From the IMG/VR virus record IMGVR_UViG_3300007516_000182, positions 1-21,649 of that record: 21,649 nucleotides of DNA, one strand, 5' to 3'. The stretch is from a virus. Below the pieces are notes generated by a model. It saw nothing but the letters and a program-made list of their open reading frames with translations. It did not search any database and had not been told where the DNA came from. Below are positions 2,664-21,649 of this stretch, piece by piece. The number at the start of each line of letters is the position of its first letter. Within the stretch, counting starts at the first letter, position 1. A program made the position numbers and the translations under genes.

Positions 2664-3275
2664 ATGTTAAAATTTATTCTCCATCAAGATAGAATTATTC
2701 TTGATATTAATATTACGTTATTAGAGGAATTTAAAGTAATTATTGAATATGGTAAGAAAAAAGCTGATGAAGAGCTGTCTCATCGTATGTTACTTTATGT
2801 TTACTGGTGTTGCGATTTAAGTAATGATAATCCAATGCGAGATATTGATTATCGCTTAAAGCCTGAGCAAGCATTAAGTCGGGCCTTAGCTCGTTCCAAG
2901 AAAAAAGTTTTTTCTGCAACAGAAATAAAATTAATAGAAGCAGCAATGGATGCTTATAATTTCTTTAATGAATCCGCGTTAGAACGTGTTGCTCTAGCTT
3001 ACGACAAAAAGATTGATGATTTAAGAACCGCTTTTGAGGAGATGGAGTTTGAAGTATCACGAGTTATTGATGAGGTAGGTCAAACTATTAGAATTGTTTC
3101 CAACGAAAAAATTATTGATAATCTTGGTAAACAAATTGTAGCTATGGCAGATTACAAAATCAAAGCGTTAGATGCTGCCAAAAAAATTGAAAACAAAGGC
3201 CGAGTAAGAGGAGATAAAGGATCATCATTAATTGAACGTGGTGTTTTTTTAAGGGATAATAAGACACATGAGTAG
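2664..3275 (+). CDS. terS: Probable terminase small subunit
   Basis: A 203-residue, mostly alpha-helical, charged protein ending 8 bases inside the large terminase gene, so the two are translationally coupled. In tailed phages the small subunit recognises the packaging site and regulates the large subunit. The N-terminal part (LEEFKVIIEYGKKKADEELSHRMLLYVYW, roughly residues 20-50) and the following DNPMRDIDYRLKPEQALSRAL resemble the protein commonly encoded immediately before TerL in crAss-like and related phages, as I recall it. Residues about 100-180 are a long helical segment that could oligomerise. Small terminases diverge strongly and no clear DNA-binding helix-turn-helix is visible, so the call rests mainly on position, size and helical character. 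It is the only gene here ending in TAG. Confidence 0.6.
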   Translation: MLKFILHQDRIILDINITLLEEFKVIIEYGKKKADEELSHRMLLYVYWCCDLSNDNPMRDIDYRLKPEQALSRALARSKKKVFSATEIKLIEAAMDAYNFFNESALERVALAYDKKIDDLRTAFEEMEFEVSRVIDEVGQTIRIVSNEKIIDNLGKQIVAMADYKIKALDAAKKIENKGRVRGDKGSSLIERGVFLRDNKTHE

Positions 3276-5592
3276 TCGAGTAATACGATATCGGGATGCC
3301 AATTCAGCACCTACGTTAACTGGCGTAGTGCAAGATTATGATCCATTTGATTTAAATTTCTTAGTTAAAAAATCGGGGAAAATATTTAATGACACTTTTG
3401 ATGTAACTGATGCTCCACTAAAATTAATTGGTGTACCAACGGGACGTGAAACCATAAAACTTTCGGATTATTTAGTTTATAGACCAGTTCCCAAAGAATT
3501 ATTAGCTTGGCGAAATGTGCCTGCCTATCATCCAGATTCTTTAGATATGGAACTGTGGTATCAAGATCTGATAACATATGCTGATGAAGGTGTGTGGGTT
3601 GATGGTGAATATTGGAATCCATTCATGGTCTATTGGTTAAATATCTTTGTATTTCCTGTTTATAAGCTTGATGGTAACGGCAATCCCCTTGAAGATTTTG
3701 AACCAACACATCCCTATTATTGTAATATTGACAGATATATACTTGATGTAGCTTGGAAAGCTGAGATCAAAAGAAGTGATGTTAGTATAATGGGTGGTCG
3801 AGGAATTGGTAAATCTTATTTATGGGGCAGTATCCTTGATAGAGAATATAGACTTAAACCCGGTAGCTGGTGTATTGTTTCGTCTACTGGCGAGGAAGAA
3901 ACAAATGAGGCTTGGAATAAAATCGAAGAATGTCTGGATGTTATTGAAAAGAAGCATAGAGGTCTTAAACATAAACGACAGGGCGGAGATAGCGGAGAGT
4001 TTAAATATGCTTCCGAAAAGTTTGAATTATCGGACGGAACAATCGAGTATCGAGGTTATTTATCCAAAATTGAAAAAATTATATATGGACGCAAACCTGG
4101 AAAAACACGAGGTAAACGTCCGACAAAGCAATTAGTTGAAGAATTTGCCGCTTTTCCACCAAGTGGTTCAATGGGAAATTTACGTTCTTGCATTCGTGAA
4201 TCGAAAGGTTCTTGGTTTGTTGGTGGTTCCATAAAAAAATGCACAGTGTTATATTCTGGAACAGGCGGTACTGTGGCAAACGATGAGGCCGAAGGAATTT
4301 TTACTAACCCAAAAGCACATAATATAGAACCAACATACGATTGGCCGGAAGCTGGTGCAAAAGGATGTGGGATATTTATACCAACTCATATTAAGCGATC
4401 TGGAACTTGGGAAAAAACTGGGTGTCCTGATATTCTCTCTGCTAGAATATTGGTAGAAGAGGAACGTTTTGCTGCAAAAGATGATCCACAATCTTTTATT
4501 GGTTTATTACAAGAATTTCCAATGAATCTCAAAGAGGTTTTTATGCGATCGGGAGCTAATATTTTTAATCAGGAAAAAATAGCGTCACAGCGTGCTGAAT
4601 TAAAATTTAATCAAGAGCTTCCAAAACCCGGTCGCGGATTTTTAAAATTTATTAGATCTGAGTCTGGTCGTATTATTGATGTTGAATGGGATCCCAATCC
4701 AGCTGGTGATATTGATATATTGGAACATCCACATTGGATTTTAGAACGAAATAAGGGAGAATTAGGAAGACCAGAGGAAAAAGAACCAATATCTGATTTA
4801 TATATTTCTGGACTTGATTCAATTGACCAAGGTTCGTCTGATTCAGCTTATGCTACAAATGATATCTTAGGATCTAAGCTTGCAATGGTGGTAAAAAAGC
4901 GAATATTAGATAAAGCATATACACGTTCAAGTAATAATGTTTATGTAGCTAAATACGTCAAAAGGTCACAAAATGTTATGGATGACTATAAAAACGTGTT
5001 GAAATTAGCAATATACTATTGTTCTAAAGTTAACTTGGAATATACAAAAATCAGTATTGTTGCATATTTCCGTGATGAAGGTTTTTATCATTTGTTTACC
5101 AAGAGACCAACAATTGCTTTGGCCGGTGGTGACCCAAAGAAACATTCTAACCTTATTGGAACCCAAGCTTCCACGCCTGTAATTGATCACATGGATATGA
5201 AAGTTAAAGATTACATTGATGAATATTATGATCAAATTTTCTTTGATGATATTTTAGAACAGTGCCAAGATTATAATCGTGATAACCGAACCAAGTTTGA
5301 CCTTGTAATTGCAATGGGCTTATGTGAATTAGGCGATGAAGACTTAATGGGAAAACCGGCTAGATCAGATCGACGTGAGTCCGAAGATTTTCGAGATATA
5401 GGATATTACACTGATAGTTCTGGTATTAAGCGGTATGGTGTTATTCCTACAATGAAAAGTGCTGGATTAAGTGATATGGAAGAATTAATTAAAAAAGAAA
5501 AAGAAAGATTTTCTTTATCTGGCGGAATTAGATGGATAGATATGTCAGATCCAATTAATCCACGCATCATGAGAGGTGAGGAAAATGAATAA
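3268..5592 (+). CDS. terL: Terminase large subunit (packaging ATPase and nuclease)
   Basis: A 774-residue protein that pumps DNA into the prohead and cuts it. The N-terminal ATPase shows a Walker A loop, GGRGIGKS (176-183). A Walker B-like strand, KQLVEEF (287-293), supplies E291/E292, and a coupling motif YSGTGG lies at 329-334. The C-terminal RNase H-like nuclease shows the expected acidic positions: D517 in YISGLDSIDQG, D603/E604 in VAYFRDEGF, and D678 in KFDLVIAMGLCELG. The length suits crAss-like large terminases, which are longer than the lambda or T4 types. Walker B reads LVEE rather than the common hhhhDE. The start overlaps the preceding gene by 8 bases, and a 47-base gap precedes the next gene. 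The short C-terminal stretch after about residue 690 is charged and probably exposed. Confidence 0.95.
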   Translation: MSSRVIRYRDANSAPTLTGVVQDYDPFDLNFLVKKSGKIFNDTFDVTDAPLKLIGVPTGRETIKLSDYLVYRPVPKELLAWRNVPAYHPDSLDMELWYQDLITYADEGVWVDGEYWNPFMVYWLNIFVFPVYKLDGNGNPLEDFEPTHPYYCNIDRYILDVAWKAEIKRSDVSIMGGRGIGKSYLWGSILDREYRLKPGSWCIVSSTGEEETNEAWNKIEECLDVIEKKHRGLKHKRQGGDSGEFKYASEKFELSDGTIEYRGYLSKIEKIIYGRKPGKTRGKRPTKQLVEEFAAFPPSGSMGNLRSCIRESKGSWFVGGSIKKCTVLYSGTGGTVANDEAEGIFTNPKAHNIEPTYDWPEAGAKGCGIFIPTHIKRSGTWEKTGCPDILSARILVEEERFAAKDDPQSFIGLLQEFPMNLKEVFMRSGANIFNQEKIASQRAELKFNQELPKPGRGFLKFIRSESGRIIDVEWDPNPAGDIDILEHPHWILERNKGELGRPEEKEPISDLYISGLDSIDQGSSDSAYATNDILGSKLAMVVKKRILDKAYTRSSNNVYVAKYVKRSQNVMDDYKNVLKLAIYYCSKVNLEYTKISIVAYFRDEGFYHLFTKRPTIALAGGDPKKHSNLIGTQASTPVIDHMDMKVKDYIDEYYDQIFFDDILEQCQDYNRDNRTKFDLVIAMGLCELGDEDLMGKPARSDRRESEDFRDIGYYTDSSGIKRYGVIPTMKSAGLSDMEELIKKEKERFSLSGGIRWIDMSDPINPRIMRGEENE

Positions 5593-5639: not shown

Positions 5640-6269
5640 ATGTTAATGAATATGAAGAACTTTAAGTCAGAGCAAATTATTGCTGCCGGGCACCATGTTG
5701 CTATTGGAGTGGAATTGGATAGATTTAACTCACCAGAGAATAGTCTTGAGCGTGAAGAATTATATATGTGTTTAAATGGATCATTTCACATTGGTGAGAT
5801 ATTAAATTTTGGAGAAAAAGCAACAGATGAAAACTGGTGTCCAGAGTTAAAAGATCCAGAAAATAAATATGCAATTATTGGAGATTTCGATGGTTATACC
5901 CCGCCGACACAAGATAAATATCTTAAGGTCGTTCCTGCACACTCAATAATTGCTATTACAACAAAATATAAAGATATGACAATTGAAGATATTAAACCAA
6001 CTAGTTCCCGAATATTAGTTAAGATTCTTGAAGAAGATTCTATTGTTAATGGTTTTCAAATAACCGATAATGAAGATCCAAGAAACGCACAAGTGCAATC
6101 AGGTATAATTTTAAAAATTGCTGATAGTGCACAGATCCAAAATTCAAATTTGAAAGTTGGGATGATGGTGAGTTTTGATCCTTATGTTGGTAATTTAATA
6201 GTTCATACATCTGAAAATAAGATTAAGACATTAAATATTAATGATGTTTTGTATTACACGACAGAATAA
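5640..6269 (+). CDS. Tandem GroES-like (co-chaperonin-like) protein
   Basis: A 209-residue protein whose two halves each follow the GroES pattern. The C-terminal half (about 118-209) reads IKPTSSRILVKILEE, a loop with NGFQI, GIILKI, VGMMVSF and KIKTLNINDVLYY. These match the GroES order P..dRvlVK, mobile loop, G.VL.vG, vGD.V.F and I...DiLa. The N-terminal half (about 16-107) shows HVAIGVELD, GEILNFGEKA, AIIGDFDGY and DKYLKVVPAHSIIAIT in the same order. Two fused GroES domains recall chloroplast Cpn20; phage T4 gp31 is a single-domain phage example. The likely role is folding or assembly help for virion proteins, perhaps with host GroEL, but this is inferred. Alternative starts at the third and fifth codons are possible. 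It lies 6 bases before the portal gene. Confidence 0.6.
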   Translation: MLMNMKNFKSEQIIAAGHHVAIGVELDRFNSPENSLEREELYMCLNGSFHIGEILNFGEKATDENWCPELKDPENKYAIIGDFDGYTPPTQDKYLKVVPAHSIIAITTKYKDMTIEDIKPTSSRILVKILEEDSIVNGFQITDNEDPRNAQVQSGIILKIADSAQIQNSNLKVGMMVSFDPYVGNLIVHTSENKIKTLNINDVLYYTTE

Positions 6270-6275
6270 AAATAA

Positions 6276-8621
6276 ATGCCCAGTACCGAAAATTTCTTAT
6301 ATCTAGATGATATTCATTTCACTGAATCCGAAAAAAATGATTTTTCGTATATTCAAAGAAAAATGGATTATTTTATTCATCATTTAGTACATGACCGTGA
6401 GCGTATTAAAAAAGCGCGAAATTTGTATGATGGTATACGAGATAAAGAAGAGTACCAATATTTAGAAAATGTATTTGGTATTGAACAACCAATAAGTTTA
6501 AAAATGACTCCGCTTATAAAAACACGAGTGGATATTTTGATTGGTATATTTTTAGATGAAAATCGACGATTCTTAGTTTCTGTAAATGATGAAGGAACAC
6601 ATGACAAAATCAATAATGAAAAAAAGAATGTTCGCATAAAGCGGATTATAGATAGATACAATAAAGCGCTACATGGTTCAATTATTGATGCTAATAATGG
6701 TAAAGAACCTTCCCAACCCAATCCAATTGATGAAGAATTTCTAAGGAAAATGGAAATTAGTATCAATGATGATTTTATTTCGGAGTTCGAAGTTGCAGCA
6801 CAGGTACTCATAAAATATTTTGAGCAGAGTAATGATGTTGATTTAGAACAAAAATTAAAAATTTTATTTCTTGATTTACTAATTACTGGAGAATGCTATT
6901 ACAGAGTTAATATTAATTATCTTGGTGACGATCCACATTTAGAGCCGTGCAAACCGGAAAACATATTTTTTAATAAAAATACCAGTGAACAATATTTAAA
7001 TACTGACGCTGTAGTTCATAGAAGATTTTTAAAACGTAATGAAATTTTGGCCAAGTATGGTCATTTGATGGATGACGATATAAAAACAGAACTTTTTGGC
7101 TCACGAGCTGGATTAGCTGGGCAACATATAGTAAGATCGGGGTTTGAAGTTGAATATGTTGCGGGAAATCACGATAACGAATATATATCTACACATCAAC
7201 AATATACATATGCAAATAATGACATTTTGGAAGTTTTTGAAGTCGAATGGATTGCAAATAATGAAATTTCCCTTTCTGAAGAAGAAATAAAATATTTGGA
7301 CCAAGTTGAAAAAATTACTGTAAGTAAAAATAATTCAATTGGTATTAAGCGTGTTGGTTCACAAGTTAAAAAATCTGGTATTAGACAGGATCGCTATTTT
7401 GGTGTACGTCTTGGACAGTATATTTATTTGGGCTGCGGAAAAGCAAAACATCAAATACGTTCCCAACATAATCCATTTAAAACCAAATTAACATTTAATG
7501 GAATTGGTTATAATGAAAGAAATAATGGGAAAGCTGCGTCGCTTGCACTTGGTTTAAAAGATCTACAAGACTTATATGATATTACAATGTTTCATCGTGA
7601 TAATTTTATTGCTAATTCAGGAGTAAATGGATCACGTATAAATTTAGCTGGTATTCCAAAAATCTTAGGGAATAATTTTGTTGAAAGAATCCAAAAATTT
7701 ATTGCATACCGTAAACAAGGATTAGAACTCATTGACCCAACTGAACCTGGTGCACAATTATTTAATCATCATGGCGATTTCAAAGCGTCTATTGATGGAA
7801 ATGTAATAACTTCTTTAGAAGTTGTTTTGCAATCTATTGAACGACAAGCTGATATTGTATCAGGAGTAAATAGATTTATGTACCAAGCTGCTCAAGAACG
7901 TGATGCAGTATCGAATGTAGATACAGGTATTCGACAAACCTCATTAATAACAAAAGATTTATTTGAATTAATGAATGTAAATATTGTACATATATTTACA
8001 GATTTAATTAATTCAGCAAAAATTACTTATAAATACGGTAAAAAAGGTTCTTATATTTTAGGGCATAAAACATATTTATTTGACATATGTCCCGAACAGT
8101 TTGCCTTTACTGATTATAATATTAATATCGTAAATTCACAAAAAGAGACTGTCAAACTTGAAAAACTTTATAATACGACTAATGAGTTAGTTAGAGCGGG
8201 AATTATGTCTCCTGAATTAGCTTTAATGGTAACTACCACCGAATCTAGCACAGATATTTTAAGAATGGTTAGATCTAGTATTGCTTCAGTTAAAGAAGAG
8301 AACGGTCAGTTACAAAAAATGTCCGAGCAACTTCAACAATTAGATACAGCTTTAAAAGAAGCACAAAAGCAATTACAGACCTATGATAATCAAATTAAAA
8401 CATTAGAAAAATCGTCAGGACAATTAGAACAAAATAAGTTTGAATTTGAAAAATACAAGTTTGAAAAGGAATATGATGTAACATTGAAGGACAGTGAAAC
8501 TTCTCAAAAACTTACAACTAGCGAAGTAATAAAAGATAAAGCAGTTATAGATTTGGAGCGTGAGCAAATAATTGCTGAAAATGCACGCGGAAGCTCTCGC
8601 GAAGTAAAAAATGATTTATGA
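6276..8621 (+). CDS. Portal protein
   Basis: A 781-residue protein placed directly after the terminase block, as expected for the dodecameric portal through which DNA is packaged and ejected. The N-terminal segment (about residues 70-102: PISLKMTPLIKTRVDILIGIF then DENRRFLVSV) fits the typical portal start, where a helix with a conserved Gly leads into a strand. A helical stem region lies around 425-560. The C-terminus is unusual: from about residue 668 to the end it is a Gln/Lys/Glu-rich coiled coil (SEQLQQLDTALKEAQKQLQ onward), which would form a long barrel or internal helical crown. It ends in TGA, overlapping the ATG of the next small gene by four bases. No start ambiguity; the upstream gap is 6 bases. 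Confidence 0.88.
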   Translation: MPSTENFLYLDDIHFTESEKNDFSYIQRKMDYFIHHLVHDRERIKKARNLYDGIRDKEEYQYLENVFGIEQPISLKMTPLIKTRVDILIGIFLDENRRFLVSVNDEGTHDKINNEKKNVRIKRIIDRYNKALHGSIIDANNGKEPSQPNPIDEEFLRKMEISINDDFISEFEVAAQVLIKYFEQSNDVDLEQKLKILFLDLLITGECYYRVNINYLGDDPHLEPCKPENIFFNKNTSEQYLNTDAVVHRRFLKRNEILAKYGHLMDDDIKTELFGSRAGLAGQHIVRSGFEVEYVAGNHDNEYISTHQQYTYANNDILEVFEVEWIANNEISLSEEEIKYLDQVEKITVSKNNSIGIKRVGSQVKKSGIRQDRYFGVRLGQYIYLGCGKAKHQIRSQHNPFKTKLTFNGIGYNERNNGKAASLALGLKDLQDLYDITMFHRDNFIANSGVNGSRINLAGIPKILGNNFVERIQKFIAYRKQGLELIDPTEPGAQLFNHHGDFKASIDGNVITSLEVVLQSIERQADIVSGVNRFMYQAAQERDAVSNVDTGIRQTSLITKDLFELMNVNIVHIFTDLINSAKITYKYGKKGSYILGHKTYLFDICPEQFAFTDYNINIVNSQKETVKLEKLYNTTNELVRAGIMSPELALMVTTTESSTDILRMVRSSIASVKEENGQLQKMSEQLQQLDTALKEAQKQLQTYDNQIKTLEKSSGQLEQNKFEFEKYKFEKEYDVTLKDSETSQKLTTSEVIKDKAVIDLEREQIIAENARGSSREVKNDL

Positions 8622-11780: not shown

Positions 11781-13187
11781 ATGAGAATTGTAGAAAGAAA
11801 CACAGTAGTACAAAACATGAGCAGCACAAAAACTGTTGAGCATTTTGGTACATTACTTGGTACTAAACCACACAAATTAGGCAAAGTGGTTACAATGTAC
11901 CCACACTTGTCCATTAGTTACTTAACTGATGCACTAAAAAATGTTTATTTCAATCCGAAAAAAACATCAGATTCATTTACCCCTATTAATTCAATGGCCA
12001 TCGAATGGAACATTGATGTTAATTACATTAAAAAAGTAAAAATTGTTGGTGCTATTTCTGGAAATGGAGCTGATAAGCGTGAAGAATCAATTGTATTAGA
12101 AGAACGATATTATGACAAAAATGATACGTTCACGTTGGAAAACAAACAACAATTGTTTGTGGTGCGTGTTCCTATTAAACTTGCGCAAAATCGTTGGAAA
12201 TATATAGTTGTACTTGTTGGTGATGGTACTAAAACGATTAACGTAACTTTTGGTGCAGCAAACCGAAATACACGCTACCGATCTAACTATTACCCTGAAT
12301 TATCAGAACGCGGTTACACAAAGTTTCATTCAAATGCTGAAACACACCGAAATTACATTTCTCGTCATAGAGCTTCTGTAGATTGGTCGGCTGATTTTGC
12401 AATGGGTGAAGAAATTTTTATTCAACAAGCAAAGGGAGAAAAAGATTCAGCTGAGTTCTTTAAAATGAACAAAAAAGAAAAAGAATGTGTTGATCACTTT
12501 TTAATTACTCGTGAACAATCATGCATTTTCTCACTAACAAACTACGATGTAAACGGAAAATGTCAAGACCAAGATGAACATGGAAGAGACATTCCAATGG
12601 GCGATGGTGTAATACCGCAGATTGAACGTTACTGTGATAAATTTTTATTCTCAGTTTTAACGTCCAGCACACTAAATGATGTGTTGTCATCTATGACCGA
12701 AAAGTCGGATGAACCAATTGGTAATATTTATGCTGTTATTTGCAATGAGCGATTGTATCGTTTATTTGGTGAATTAATGCAAACTGACTTAAGATTCCAA
12801 ACCCCAAATGATGGATCCTATTTCTATTCAAAGGTTGGCGGAAAAGTTAAAGTTGGTGCTGAGTATGTATCCTATACATTACAAGGAAACACAATTACTT
12901 TTATGCCAAATCGTGCATTAAGTCAAGAATACCCAGATCATGGATATGGTATTTTCTTAGACACTACTGCTGATTTAACTTCTGGTCGTCCAAACGTTGC
13001 AATGTTTACATTAAATGGTTCTGAGATGATTACCGGTAACTTAAATGGTATGGGTGGAGCAGATGGTCAAACATCTGGCACCGTTTCGACTGGTGTACAT
13101 GGATCACAATATCACCTTATAGGTTATGCTGGAGCATGTGTATTCAATCCTTATAAATCTTTTATTTTGGAAGAATCACGTATCTAA
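11781..13187 (+). CDS. Major capsid protein (crAss-like, HK97 fold)
   Basis: A 468-residue protein forming the icosahedral shell. The order of blocks follows crAss-like capsid proteins as I recall them: KLGKVVTMYPHLSISYLT near residues 32-49, ERYYDKNDTF and the following VRVPIK, RSNYYPELSERGY, FFKMNKKEKECVDHFL, GDGVIPQIERYCDKF, DTTADLTSGRPNVAMFTLN (394-412), and the closing FNPYKSFILEE (455-465). It follows the scaffold gene and has its own leader with a palindrome and a hairpin, plus a strong terminator 19 bases after its stop. That suggests a separate, abundant transcript. The ATG at 11781 is chosen because coding character continues to it; the Met at codon 13 is an alternative. No sign of truncation. 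Confidence 0.93.
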   Translation: MRIVERNTVVQNMSSTKTVEHFGTLLGTKPHKLGKVVTMYPHLSISYLTDALKNVYFNPKKTSDSFTPINSMAIEWNIDVNYIKKVKIVGAISGNGADKREESIVLEERYYDKNDTFTLENKQQLFVVRVPIKLAQNRWKYIVVLVGDGTKTINVTFGAANRNTRYRSNYYPELSERGYTKFHSNAETHRNYISRHRASVDWSADFAMGEEIFIQQAKGEKDSAEFFKMNKKEKECVDHFLITREQSCIFSLTNYDVNGKCQDQDEHGRDIPMGDGVIPQIERYCDKFLFSVLTSSTLNDVLSSMTEKSDEPIGNIYAVICNERLYRLFGELMQTDLRFQTPNDGSYFYSKVGGKVKVGAEYVSYTLQGNTITFMPNRALSQEYPDHGYGIFLDTTADLTSGRPNVAMFTLNGSEMITGNLNGMGGADGQTSGTVSTGVHGSQYHLIGYAGACVFNPYKSFILEESRI

Positions 13188-17650: not shown

Positions 17651-18400
17651 ATGGCAATTATAGCAAAAAAATATGGTAAAAATGTTAGAGTTTCAAAGTA
17701 TGAAACTGTAGGAATGATGACATTAAAAGATATTTATCCCGGTAATAAAGTCACAAATAAAGAATATTTAATTAAAACTAAATCTGCCCCATCGGGTGCT
17801 TTTAAAGATCTATATCATGTCCAAGACAATTCTTCTTTAGTAAGAAAGATTTTTCGCGAATATTTATTTTCAGTTTTAGAAGTTATTTCTACTGGAAAAT
17901 GTGCATTCAAAATGCCAAATAAAAGTGGTAGTTTGATTTATTTAGGTTACATGAATGACAAAGCTGTACAATATAAAGCACAAAAAGGACAACTAAAAGA
18001 TATTGATTTATTAGCGAGTGGATTTAAAGTTCCATATTTGACTTATTGTATTTCTAAAACAGTGAAAAGACAAGAATTAAAAATCTTTGTACCACAACAA
18101 ATCTACCAAAATATTTTAGAAGTTGCTAACGAAAATAAAAAACCATCTAAAATACCTTATGAATTTAAATATTTTTTGGAACCAATATTTACTAAATATA
18201 ATGAACTAGAGCAACATGGAATTCAAAAGCTTATATTAGACTTATTACGAACAATGGGAAAATATATAACCCGTGGACAAGAAATAAGAATGGTATTTAA
18301 TAGCGGTGAAATTAGATTTTTCCGTCCATTAGGTAATGTTCATGACAGAGTGATGCGTGAACTTAATAAAAAATATAACAAATGTCTCAAAAAAATATAA
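17651..18400 (+). CDS. Conserved-context protein before the muzzle, unknown function
   Basis: A 249-residue basic protein (high Lys) whose position between ring and muzzle genes suggests a tail or regulatory role. Residues about 65-100 (VRKIFREYLFSVLEVISTGKCAF then KMPNKSGSLIYLGY) follow a pattern I recall from small proteins in Bacteroidota phages: FR.f...vl..i..G..f.LP...G.l.i. The centre and C-terminus (FLEPIFTKYNEL, LILDLLRTMGKYI, then IRFFRPLG and a Lys-rich helical tail) give no clear motif. No enzyme residues or membrane segment are visible. Its end overlaps the muzzle start by 19 bases, so the two are probably translationally coupled. The basic charge would allow nucleic-acid contact, which is speculation. 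Confidence 0.7.
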   Translation: MAIIAKKYGKNVRVSKYETVGMMTLKDIYPGNKVTNKEYLIKTKSAPSGAFKDLYHVQDNSSLVRKIFREYLFSVLEVISTGKCAFKMPNKSGSLIYLGYMNDKAVQYKAQKGQLKDIDLLASGFKVPYLTYCISKTVKRQELKIFVPQQIYQNILEVANENKKPSKIPYEFKYFLEPIFTKYNELEQHGIQKLILDLLRTMGKYITRGQEIRMVFNSGEIRFFRPLGNVHDRVMRELNKKYNKCLKKI

Positions 18401-21400
18401 ATAGCTTTTCTGAATTAAATAGCGACGCTCATGTGTTGAATACACAAAGAACGGTAATGACAGATGCTATGAATGCTACTCTTACTACTCAGGGCGAAAA
18501 CGAGCTTATTTTACAAAATTTAACCGGAAATGAATTAAAAGGATTAGTAACTCCTGGTTTTACACCAGTAGCAACTAAAGTTTTTAGAAATATTGCTTAT
18601 ATTATTTCAGCTCAATTTGATGACGACAATAATTTTGTTCAAGGTGAAATTGGAACATTTCCTTCCCCAAGATGGAATGACTTGTTAGTTGCTAGCGATC
18701 CTGAAGTTTTTATCCCCCTTATTGAAGCTTATCAACCGCTAAGAAACTTTCATAGTACTTATCTTGACACTAATGTAGAATTGGAAGACGATTTGAATTA
18801 TACAGATCCATTCCGAACTCCACAATTAAATTTGCCTGATCGCTTAATTGAATTAGAGCTTCAGCCATCTTACGATGGGTCTTTAAATTTGATTTTTTCC
18901 GATGATAAAAATCCTATTCGATTAGTAAATTCAAGATTTAAACTTTCCGAAGATGGAAAAAGTGCGGCAATTGCAGATCGTCGACAGCTAAGAGATACTA
19001 ATACTTATAGTAACGCACGATTTTTAGCTACACGATTATTTAAAGTCTCTGGTAAAATTCTGGATTTGGAATTTCTAGGGTTAGTAGATGGTGGATCGTT
19101 CTTAGGGGGAGGTTACAGATTTTATTTTTTATATCTTGACAGCGATGGTTCTTTATCGCAAGTTATTGAAGAGTCCAGAACAGTTGCTATGTCTTTCAGT
19201 GACCATGGTGCTCGAGCATCTCAAGATACTAATAAAGCTGTAAGATTTAGATTATCCAATTTGGATAAACAATTTAGTGGTGTGAAAGTATATTTTAGTT
19301 ATTCTTCTGGTGAAATTTCTACTACCTCAGTCGTTTACGAAATTGCTAACATTTATGATATTCCAATTGCTGAAAATGATTTTGATATTACCATTACAAT
19401 TTATGGGAATGAAACTGTTTTTGAAGTATCTCGGGATGTGTTAAATTTAAATCATTATCCAATTGACCGTGCTAAAACGATAACTCAATATGATGATATG
19501 TTACTAATTGGTAACACAACACATGAGTTCACAGATTTTAAAGAATTTCAATTTTATGCTTCTAAAATTAAAATTAATGAAGTAATTCAAACTTTAAATA
19601 TAAGAGAATTAGGAAATGGTTATGCAGATCCTGAAAATGTTTATCATCGCTTAGGTGTTTGGGCTGGAGAAACATACGAATTAGCAATTGTATGGATTTT
19701 AAAAGATGGATTAGGAATAACACCAGCTTTCCCACTGAGGGGGTATGATTATTATAATGGAGTTAATGATAATGGTTATCAAGATTATGGAAATACCGAG
19801 ATAGAAGAAGCGGATGGTTTTATTTTAAATACTTCTGAAAATAGACTAGGTGCATATAGGACTAGAAAACAGCGTAATTTGTTAATTGGAGATCCAATAT
19901 TACCGGACACTGAAGTTGACGCGGAACCAGCATATACTGAAATTCGTGGATTAGTGGCTGATATGTCAGCAATTATTAATAGTGCTTTTCTTAATGAAAA
20001 AGTATCCGGTTACTTTTTTGTTCGACGACCACGCCGTAAAGATGCTTTAATACAAGGTATGTTAACAAATACTGCAAAAATACCTGTTCGACAAACAATT
20101 AAATCAAGTACACCATTTCAATGGGAAACTGGCGACGATATATTTAATGGCGGATTATTCAATGGTATGATGCGATATAAAGTGTCAATTGCTAATAAAG
20201 GTTGGATTGGTCCATATTTTCCTGAAAAACAATCTCACCTTGGATTAAAAATTATTCCTTCAGTGGGTCGTACTTTTGAAAGCACAATTGTAAAATCAAT
20301 AGCAGGATTTAATAATCCAACTATTCCGCAACTTCCGGGTCAATTTGTTTCCTTTCAGGGCGCAGTTTATCCACCGCCAAATGATGAAGCATTACAAAGG
20401 GATGATATGAAATTAGCTTTTTATAGTTCCGATTTGTTATGCTCCCCAGCTGAGGGCGCTGCATTATTTAATGGAATTGAATTTGGTGTCCTCACGGATA
20501 CACAACCAATTCACGGGTTCCAGCGTCAATCTCAATTAACTGTTGGTGCAGACGTTACTGAGGATGGTACTATTTACGCATTTTGTAGTGCTGGTCGTGC
20601 GGAATTTGATCAATATGTAAATTTAAATGATGGCGCCCAAGTCCCAGGATTTTATAGTGCTTTCAGTGTTTGGTCTTTGTTAGCTGTCGAATGTAATGGC
20701 ATTTTTGAACTTGGGTCACCAACTGTGATGACGGGAACATGTGAAGGTTCATTAGATATGTATGGTTATTTTACACAATTTGATAATCTTACAATTTCTA
20801 ATGGTATATTTGGCCCACCATCTTCTTATTTTTCAGGGTCCTTTAGTTTTGATACCGCATCCAACCTTTTAATTTGCAATGTCTCTTGGCCGGGTATTTA
20901 TGCACCTACAAGTGATAACACTTTTGCTTTAACCGCAGTAATTACAATATATGTGGACTCTTTTATCCAAGGTGTTAATGGATCTATGACATGGTATAGT
21001 ATGCAACTTGTATGGGGATCATTAACAAGTGTTCCCCCTGAACTCATAGTTGCTTTTCAAGAACTGAATTTTAATCCTGTATCTGACCCTAGTGGACCAC
21101 CAAACGATTTTAATTATACTGATTACCCTGAATTTTCGTTACACGCCGGGAGTTATGGAAGTTTTTATAATGCGGTTGATGCAACATTAAATTTATTATC
21201 TAATATTACTCAACAAACTGTTGACCCTATCCAAAACCTAGTTTATAATCCATTTGGATTTAATCCAGAATATAAATTAACAGAATTTACGGAAGATCGA
21301 TTAGCTGAATTTCAATATGTCAATCGAGGAAATAATGCTTTTTCTGCTAATCAATTTTCATCATTAGCAGATAGAAATTTATATCCAATATATACTAATT

Positions 21401-21649
21401 TTATAGATACCGAAGATCTTAATTTACGTCAATTATCGGAAGATCATATTGAATTTGGTGACTATATAGGAGTAAGTTTGGATAAATATTCTCCTGTAAT
21501 TGGTGAACTTTTAAAAAATGATAGTCACTTAGTCTATAGTGTTGCATGTAGTAATACGATTTTGCATGATTATAAAGATTTGCAAAGTTATGCAAATAGA
21601 ACTCATAATTTAGGTTTTTCTGTTGGTCTAATGGCAAATATTTATAAAA
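18382..21649 (+). CDS. Muzzle / tail-stub protein, crAss-like (3' partial)
   Basis: An open frame of 1089 codons from MSQKNINSFSELNSD to the window edge with no stop. The N-terminal block (residues 57-98: TPGFTPVATKVFRNIAYIIS, then GEIGTFPSPRW) follows the crAss-like muzzle pattern L.PGY.P.G.K...gi.YI.S...GEIG.FPSP. Internally, GYFFVRRPRRK (543-553) fits the G.FFVRQ.R motif that I recall from the same family. The muzzle caps the short tail, closing the DNA channel until ejection. Much of the rest looks beta-rich with many aromatic residues, as expected of a virion protein (SFQGAVYPPPN, GIFELGSPTVMTGTCEG). It overlaps the preceding gene by 19 bases. Family members are over 1000 residues, so the missing part may be modest. 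Confidence 0.88.
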   Translation, partial: MSQKNINSFSELNSDAHVLNTQRTVMTDAMNATLTTQGENELILQNLTGNELKGLVTPGFTPVATKVFRNIAYIISAQFDDDNNFVQGEIGTFPSPRWNDLLVASDPEVFIPLIEAYQPLRNFHSTYLDTNVELEDDLNYTDPFRTPQLNLPDRLIELELQPSYDGSLNLIFSDDKNPIRLVNSRFKLSEDGKSAAIADRRQLRDTNTYSNARFLATRLFKVSGKILDLEFLGLVDGGSFLGGGYRFYFLYLDSDGSLSQVIEESRTVAMSFSDHGARASQDTNKAVRFRLSNLDKQFSGVKVYFSYSSGEISTTSVVYEIANIYDIPIAENDFDITITIYGNETVFEVSRDVLNLNHYPIDRAKTITQYDDMLLIGNTTHEFTDFKEFQFYASKIKINEVIQTLNIRELGNGYADPENVYHRLGVWAGETYELAIVWILKDGLGITPAFPLRGYDYYNGVNDNGYQDYGNTEIEEADGFILNTSENRLGAYRTRKQRNLLIGDPILPDTEVDAEPAYTEIRGLVADMSAIINSAFLNEKVSGYFFVRRPRRKDALIQGMLTNTAKIPVRQTIKSSTPFQWETGDDIFNGGLFNGMMRYKVSIANKGWIGPYFPEKQSHLGLKIIPSVGRTFESTIVKSIAGFNNPTIPQLPGQFVSFQGAVYPPPNDEALQRDDMKLAFYSSDLLCSPAEGAALFNGIEFGVLTDTQPIHGFQRQSQLTVGADVTEDGTIYAFCSAGRAEFDQYVNLNDGAQVPGFYSAFSVWSLLAVECNGIFELGSPTVMTGTCEGSLDMYGYFTQFDNLTISNGIFGPPSSYFSGSFSFDTASNLLICNVSWPGIYAPTSDNTFALTAVITIYVDSFIQGVNGSMTWYSMQLVWGSLTSVPPELIVAFQELNFNPVSDPSGPPNDFNYTDYPEFSLHAGSYGSFYNAVDATLNLLSNITQQTVDPIQNLVYNPFGFNPEYKLTEFTEDRLAEFQYVNRGNNAFSANQFSSLADRNLYPIYTNFIDTEDLNLRQLSEDHIEFGDYIGVSLDKYSPVIGELLKNDSHLVYSVACSNTILHDYKDLQSYANRTHNLGFSVGLMANIYK

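Follow-up and report, generated by a model that had tools for sequence, protein, structure and literature searches.

Gp31 of bacteriophage T4 is a single-domain co-chaperonin that forms a homoheptamer and folds gp23 together with GroEL; its gene presumably does not lie between those of the terminase and the portal protein. In chloroplasts, tandem co-chaperonins form seven-domain hetero-oligomers with Cpn10, artificial lids of six or eight domains are also functional, and the tandem Cpn10 co-chaperonin has been reviewed as unique to chloroplasts (PMC5780408). GroEL genes have been reported earlier in Bacteroidota phages of the phi38:1/IAS-virus group (PMC5332604). Single-domain genes annotated as '10 kDa chaperonin' are widespread in Steigviridae and their relatives (50 records), and in Steigviridae they occur near the terminase.

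In this work we have analyzed a gene of a 21.6-kb IMG/VR virus fragment, taken at its full length of 21,649 nucleotides (the window), whose product holds two head-to-tail GroES-like domains. Its sequence, its predicted model and its analogy with known systems suggest that it is probably a lid for GroEL.

Two head-to-tail GroES-like domains in one protein

The open reading frame starts with ATG and is intact up to its stop codon (Table 1). It is separated by 47 bp from the terminase ORF and by 6 bp from the portal ORF; the PHROG matches of both neighbours bear out the position given for it in a preliminary description, and every motif quoted there is present in the translation. The window terminase shows approximately 25% identity to the terminases of Crassvirales. 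Further downstream, nine head/tail ORFs between 8760 and 18400 match no PHROG family at E 0.01, the one at 11781-13187 being the likely major capsid protein, and a long ORF at 18382-21648 (at least 1089 amino acids, continuing past the record end) probably encodes a large tail or structural protein.

Table 1 Features of the window and of one relative
Feature	Coordinates	Strand	Basis
Terminase large subunit, upstream neighbour	3268..5592	+	PHROG 6681, 7.5e-47
Tandem GroES-like (Cpn20-type) protein, 209 aa	5640..6269	+	Pfam Cpn10, profiles, predicted model
N-terminal GroES-like domain, residues 1-116	5640..5987	+	Relatives-only profile, 59.6 bits; N-half-alone model; N-halves of relatives pass Cpn10
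N-domain mobile loop position, residues 27-47	5718..5780	+	Low model confidence; without the glycine-plus-hydrophobic signature of most relatives
C-terminal GroES-like domain, residues 117-209	5988..6266	+	Pfam Cpn10, 1.6e-5 (C-half alone); GroES structures, 3e-7
C-domain mobile loop, residues 131-154	6030..6101	+	GFQI (138-141) at the place of GroES GIVL, then family motif DPR
Portal protein, downstream neighbour, probably translationally coupled	6276..8621	+	PHROG 6547, 2.4e-40
GroEL of a window relative, 523 aa	L046:4211-5782	-	Contig IMGVR_UViG_3300033233_000033

The Pfam Cpn10 family (PF00166) was matched by the window protein at residues 118-204 with 25.1 bits (hmmscan; curated cut-off 21.1). 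When the two halves were searched separately, as the preliminary description had proposed, only the C-half of the window protein gave a match, its N-half giving none, whereas the N-halves of relatives exceed the cut-off by themselves (41.8 bits in L036, 35.5 in L002, 31.6 in L035 and 28.7 in L010). Cpn10 was matched by all 11 members of the alignment of relatives (A1), at best with 3.8e-14. HMM profiles built from the relatives, with the window protein left out, scored its halves at 59.6 bits (N) and 90.1 bits (C); among 4,000 shuffled halves no score exceeded 11.0 (N) and 9.7 bits (C). Since the shuffled sequences stay at or below 11 bits, the Cpn10 cut-off is passed and all aligned relatives match, the GroES-like match is not due to chance. 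The profiles of the N- and C-halves also align with each other (hhalign probability 97, E 5.6e-11), so the protein contains two homologous domains.

Among solved structures the profile of the whole family matched Cpn20 best (4e-6), with GroES chains next, and Cpn20 came first for each half as well: N-half 3e-6, followed by GroES 3nx6 (2e-5); C-half 2e-7, followed by Thermus GroES (3e-7). PHROGs gave weak matches only for the window protein and a clear one for its relatives, to co-chaperonin GroES (phrog_3188). A family search of the window record returned no match for the tandem gene although hmmscan finds Cpn10 in it, which marks the sensitivity limit of that search.

The AlphaFold model of the whole protein (pLDDT 79.5, pTM 0.78) was aligned over its full length by Foldseek with Cpn23 (1e-7) and then Cpn20 (6e-7), as the preliminary description had guessed. 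The best full-length match in VIA-align was Chlamydomonas Cpn23 (Z 14.0, rmsd 3.4, 181 residues); individual chains of GroES and of gp31 came next with Z about 6-9, T4 gp31, which has the GroES fold, reaching 8.6. For the N-half predicted alone (pLDDT 78.7, pTM 0.71) the best 15 structures were all co-chaperonins (gp31, Z 7.6; GroES 3nx6, Z 7.5), and GroES-like domains of alcohol dehydrogenase relatives followed. These Z values are middling if taken alone and agree with the profile evidence. A GroES beta-barrel is thus predicted for both halves, each of which matches GroES/gp31 structures best. With each half tested separately, profiles and models uphold the GroES-like nature claimed for both of them.

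The C-domain lacks almost all of the roof segment of GroES, of which the N-domain has a shorter version, and the N-domain loop falls below pLDDT 50 in the whole-protein model. In the alignment the N-domain loops of relatives keep the signature (DGIYIG, ESGLYVG and SGIITG versus GGIVLTG of E. coli GroES), and their C-domain loop usually reads GIYDD followed by DPRxAxTQxG, with an acidic residue within the tripeptide in most of them. The arrangement in the window is swapped, with NSLERE in the N-domain loop and GFQIT in the C-domain loop: the usual GroEL-binding signature has been lost from the former and one (GFQI) is kept in the latter. Which domain carries the GroEL-gripping loop may therefore be specific to the lineage. 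As the N-domain loop of the window and the C-domain tripeptide of most relatives are degenerate, a standard GroEL may not be held by one of the two domains.

Relatives of the tandem gene and a phage-encoded GroEL

Scanning viral sequences with the single window sequence yielded nothing, and terminase- and alignment-based scans were needed. The former recovered 13 contigs, each with a homologue of 195-206 amino acids directly between terminase and portal; further members came from the latter, bringing the total to about 26 IMG/VR contigs in which the tandem gene immediately precedes the portal gene. One scan of bacterial and archaeal genomes revealed no tandem relative. The sole named-phage tblastn match of the window protein, MT835856 (E 0.1), was rejected, as it reads as a bacterial chromosome; this record (MT835856.1, locus L001), labelled Bacteriophage sp. 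in GenBank, carries genes for lipid A, ribonuclease H and ribonucleotide reductase.

The tandem gene was found directly upstream of the portal gene in every locus read. The gap between them is below 12 bp in nearly all loci (56 bp in L036), and in several loci its stop codon and the portal ATG share one base; these short gaps and overlaps suggest translational coupling with the portal. In genome G010 the terminase gene is located approximately 4.7 kb upstream, yet the tandem gene still touches the portal gene.

In a portal tree with long branches and an unsure deep order, the carriers group with MT835470, apart from Steigviridae, Suoliviridae and Fpv1 (Fipvunavirus). MT835470 encodes an unannotated protein of 183 amino acids that has a single GroES-like domain and is extended at its N-terminus (L038:3278-3829), and an unannotated gene of the same build is present in MT835539 (L039:1-444); both genes lie upstream of the terminase in human-gut crAss-related phages. 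An N-terminal leader resembling M(I/L)LRKYQxGG is common to several neighbouring ORFs (L074:311-4798, L037:1864-3693, L019:5521-6138) and could be a signal by which virion or cargo proteins are targeted or cleaved. Some terminases of relatives have apparent intein or homing-endonuclease insertions (L019:3-2492, L014:2510-5845, L039:3386-5754), with a LAGLIDADG-like YILGCLLGDGG in the L019 insert and approximately 1 kb extra in L014.

A GroEL of 523 amino acids is encoded by one relative of 69 kb (G007, the contig of locus L027), within a replication module that contains DNA ligase-like and DNA polymerase-like genes. GroEL was found on 1 of the 14 related contigs examined, which are probably fragments. 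The protein is 31% identical to E. coli GroEL, its closest PDB entry is an ancestral Fibrobacteres-Chlorobi-Bacteroidetes chaperonin, and the ATPase residues D52, D87, T89-91 and D398 are conserved. In the groove for lid and substrate Y203, F204, L237 and L259 are kept, and L234 and V264 are replaced by lysine. With one such GroEL known, it is only an idea that the groove lysines pair with the acidic lid loops. The broader proposal, that this crAss-related lineage evolved its own lid of two unlike domains, which some members would pair with a phage GroEL altered at L234 and V264 and whose acidic loops would fit only the phage chamber, we regard as doubtful. If true, the phages would possess a folding machine of their own for head proteins, one that faces the same seven-versus-two symmetry problem as Cpn20.

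Function of the tandem protein

We consider the protein, with a probability of roughly 0.77, to be a phage co-chaperonin of the Cpn20 layout, acting as a ring of about seven barrels that caps GroEL for the folding of head proteins. It would be made together with terminase and portal, presumably late in infection, and would stay outside the virion; the ring would cap the host GroEL, or in some relatives the GroEL of the phage, and so adapt it to head proteins, for instance the portal or the major capsid protein. That the clients would be head proteins is suggested by the gene position and by the T4 gp31 precedent. A ring of seven barrels cannot be built evenly from chains of two, which counts against the proposal, as do the possible failure of one domain in each chain to hold a standard GroEL and the presence of GroEL on only 1 of the 14 related contigs. 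Since lids of six, seven and eight domains work (PMC5780408), varied stoichiometries are possible, and the assembly might be built from three chains alone, from three together with a single host GroES, or from four.

The place beside the portal also counts against a co-chaperonin, as it would equally suit a structural protein, and the preliminary description had left the choice between a phage co-chaperonin and a GroES fold reused as a virion part. Under the latter reading the protein would serve, for example, as a portal-vertex ring or portal-assembly factor that no longer works with GroEL. This would agree with the constant linkage to the portal gene, which holds even in G010 with its distant terminase, with the frequent one-base overlap of the portal start codon, and with the degenerate loop signature in one domain of most members. 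However, GroES-like loop signatures persist in the relatives, whose scores are well above the Pfam chaperonin cut-off, and one of them encodes a phage GroEL. No chaperonin-like protein is mentioned in the available text of the paper on the phiCrAss001 structure (PMC10172136), though that group has the single-domain gene, and gp096 of Cellulophaga phage phi18:3, a probable parallel discussed below, carries no mark of detection by virion MS/MS. We therefore find a virion part unlikely and the co-chaperonin the better supported of the two functions. A further reading is a decoy or inhibitor that would reprogramme the host by occupying its GroEL or blocking its GroES, since in each pair one domain has a degenerate loop, which could permit binding without a normal folding cycle; the gene is located in the head module, not in an early take-over module, and one relative has a GroEL of its own, which makes such a role highly improbable.

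Comparison with known co-chaperonins

The best full-length match of the phage protein by both profile and predicted structure, Cpn20/Cpn23 (tandem Cpn10; 7ekq chains R and Q), likewise consists of two head-to-tail GroES domains in about 200 amino acids, at approximately 15-17% identity. An independent duplication seems more likely than descent from a plastid Cpn20 gene. The shortness and divergence of the domains preclude a reliable tree. With two homologous domains in its chain, the window protein is not a single-domain analogue of the gp31 type; its job is likely to be similar to that of T4 gp31. The putative 10 kDa chaperonin of Steigviridae (phiCrAss001 group) is GroES-like and encoded in the head module of Crassvirales, as is the window gene, but has one domain only (about 130 amino acids); in cr85_1 its gene is located three genes before the terminase. 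Elemovirus gp60, annotated as co-chaperonin GroES (180 amino acids), is encoded by a gene that immediately precedes terminase and portal; Pfam Cpn10 does not recognize it at full length or in either half, and a tandem structure is only a reading of its sequence.

Our literature searches retrieved no description of a tandem phage GroES co-chaperonin, and the preliminary description had called such a form unusual, phage co-chaperonins being single-domain. A tandem phage form is, however, not without precedent in view of gp096 of phi18:3 (Pachyviridae), a protein of 200 amino acids annotated as co-chaperonin GroES by similarity only (in that genome an MS/MS note is attached to the portal and several structural genes). 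Its C-half passes Cpn10, its BFVD model gives a whole-length match, and it is probably tandem. A direct comparison with the window protein family gave no significant alignment. The gp096 gene lies two genes before the terminase and three before the portal, whereas the window gene stands between the two, and phi18:3 encodes a second, single GroES as well (gp080).

A clade of crAss-related phages thus conserves the tandem layout, which probably has parallels in further phages of Bacteroidota, and the presence of this layout outside chloroplasts suggests that it arose more than once. It points to chaperonin-assisted head assembly among crAss-like phages and offers a small system in which to study the fit between a lid of two-domain chains and a chamber of seven-fold symmetry. 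The layout is new as a conserved gene of this clade, and an annotated, probably tandem phage co-chaperonin already exists in phi18:3.
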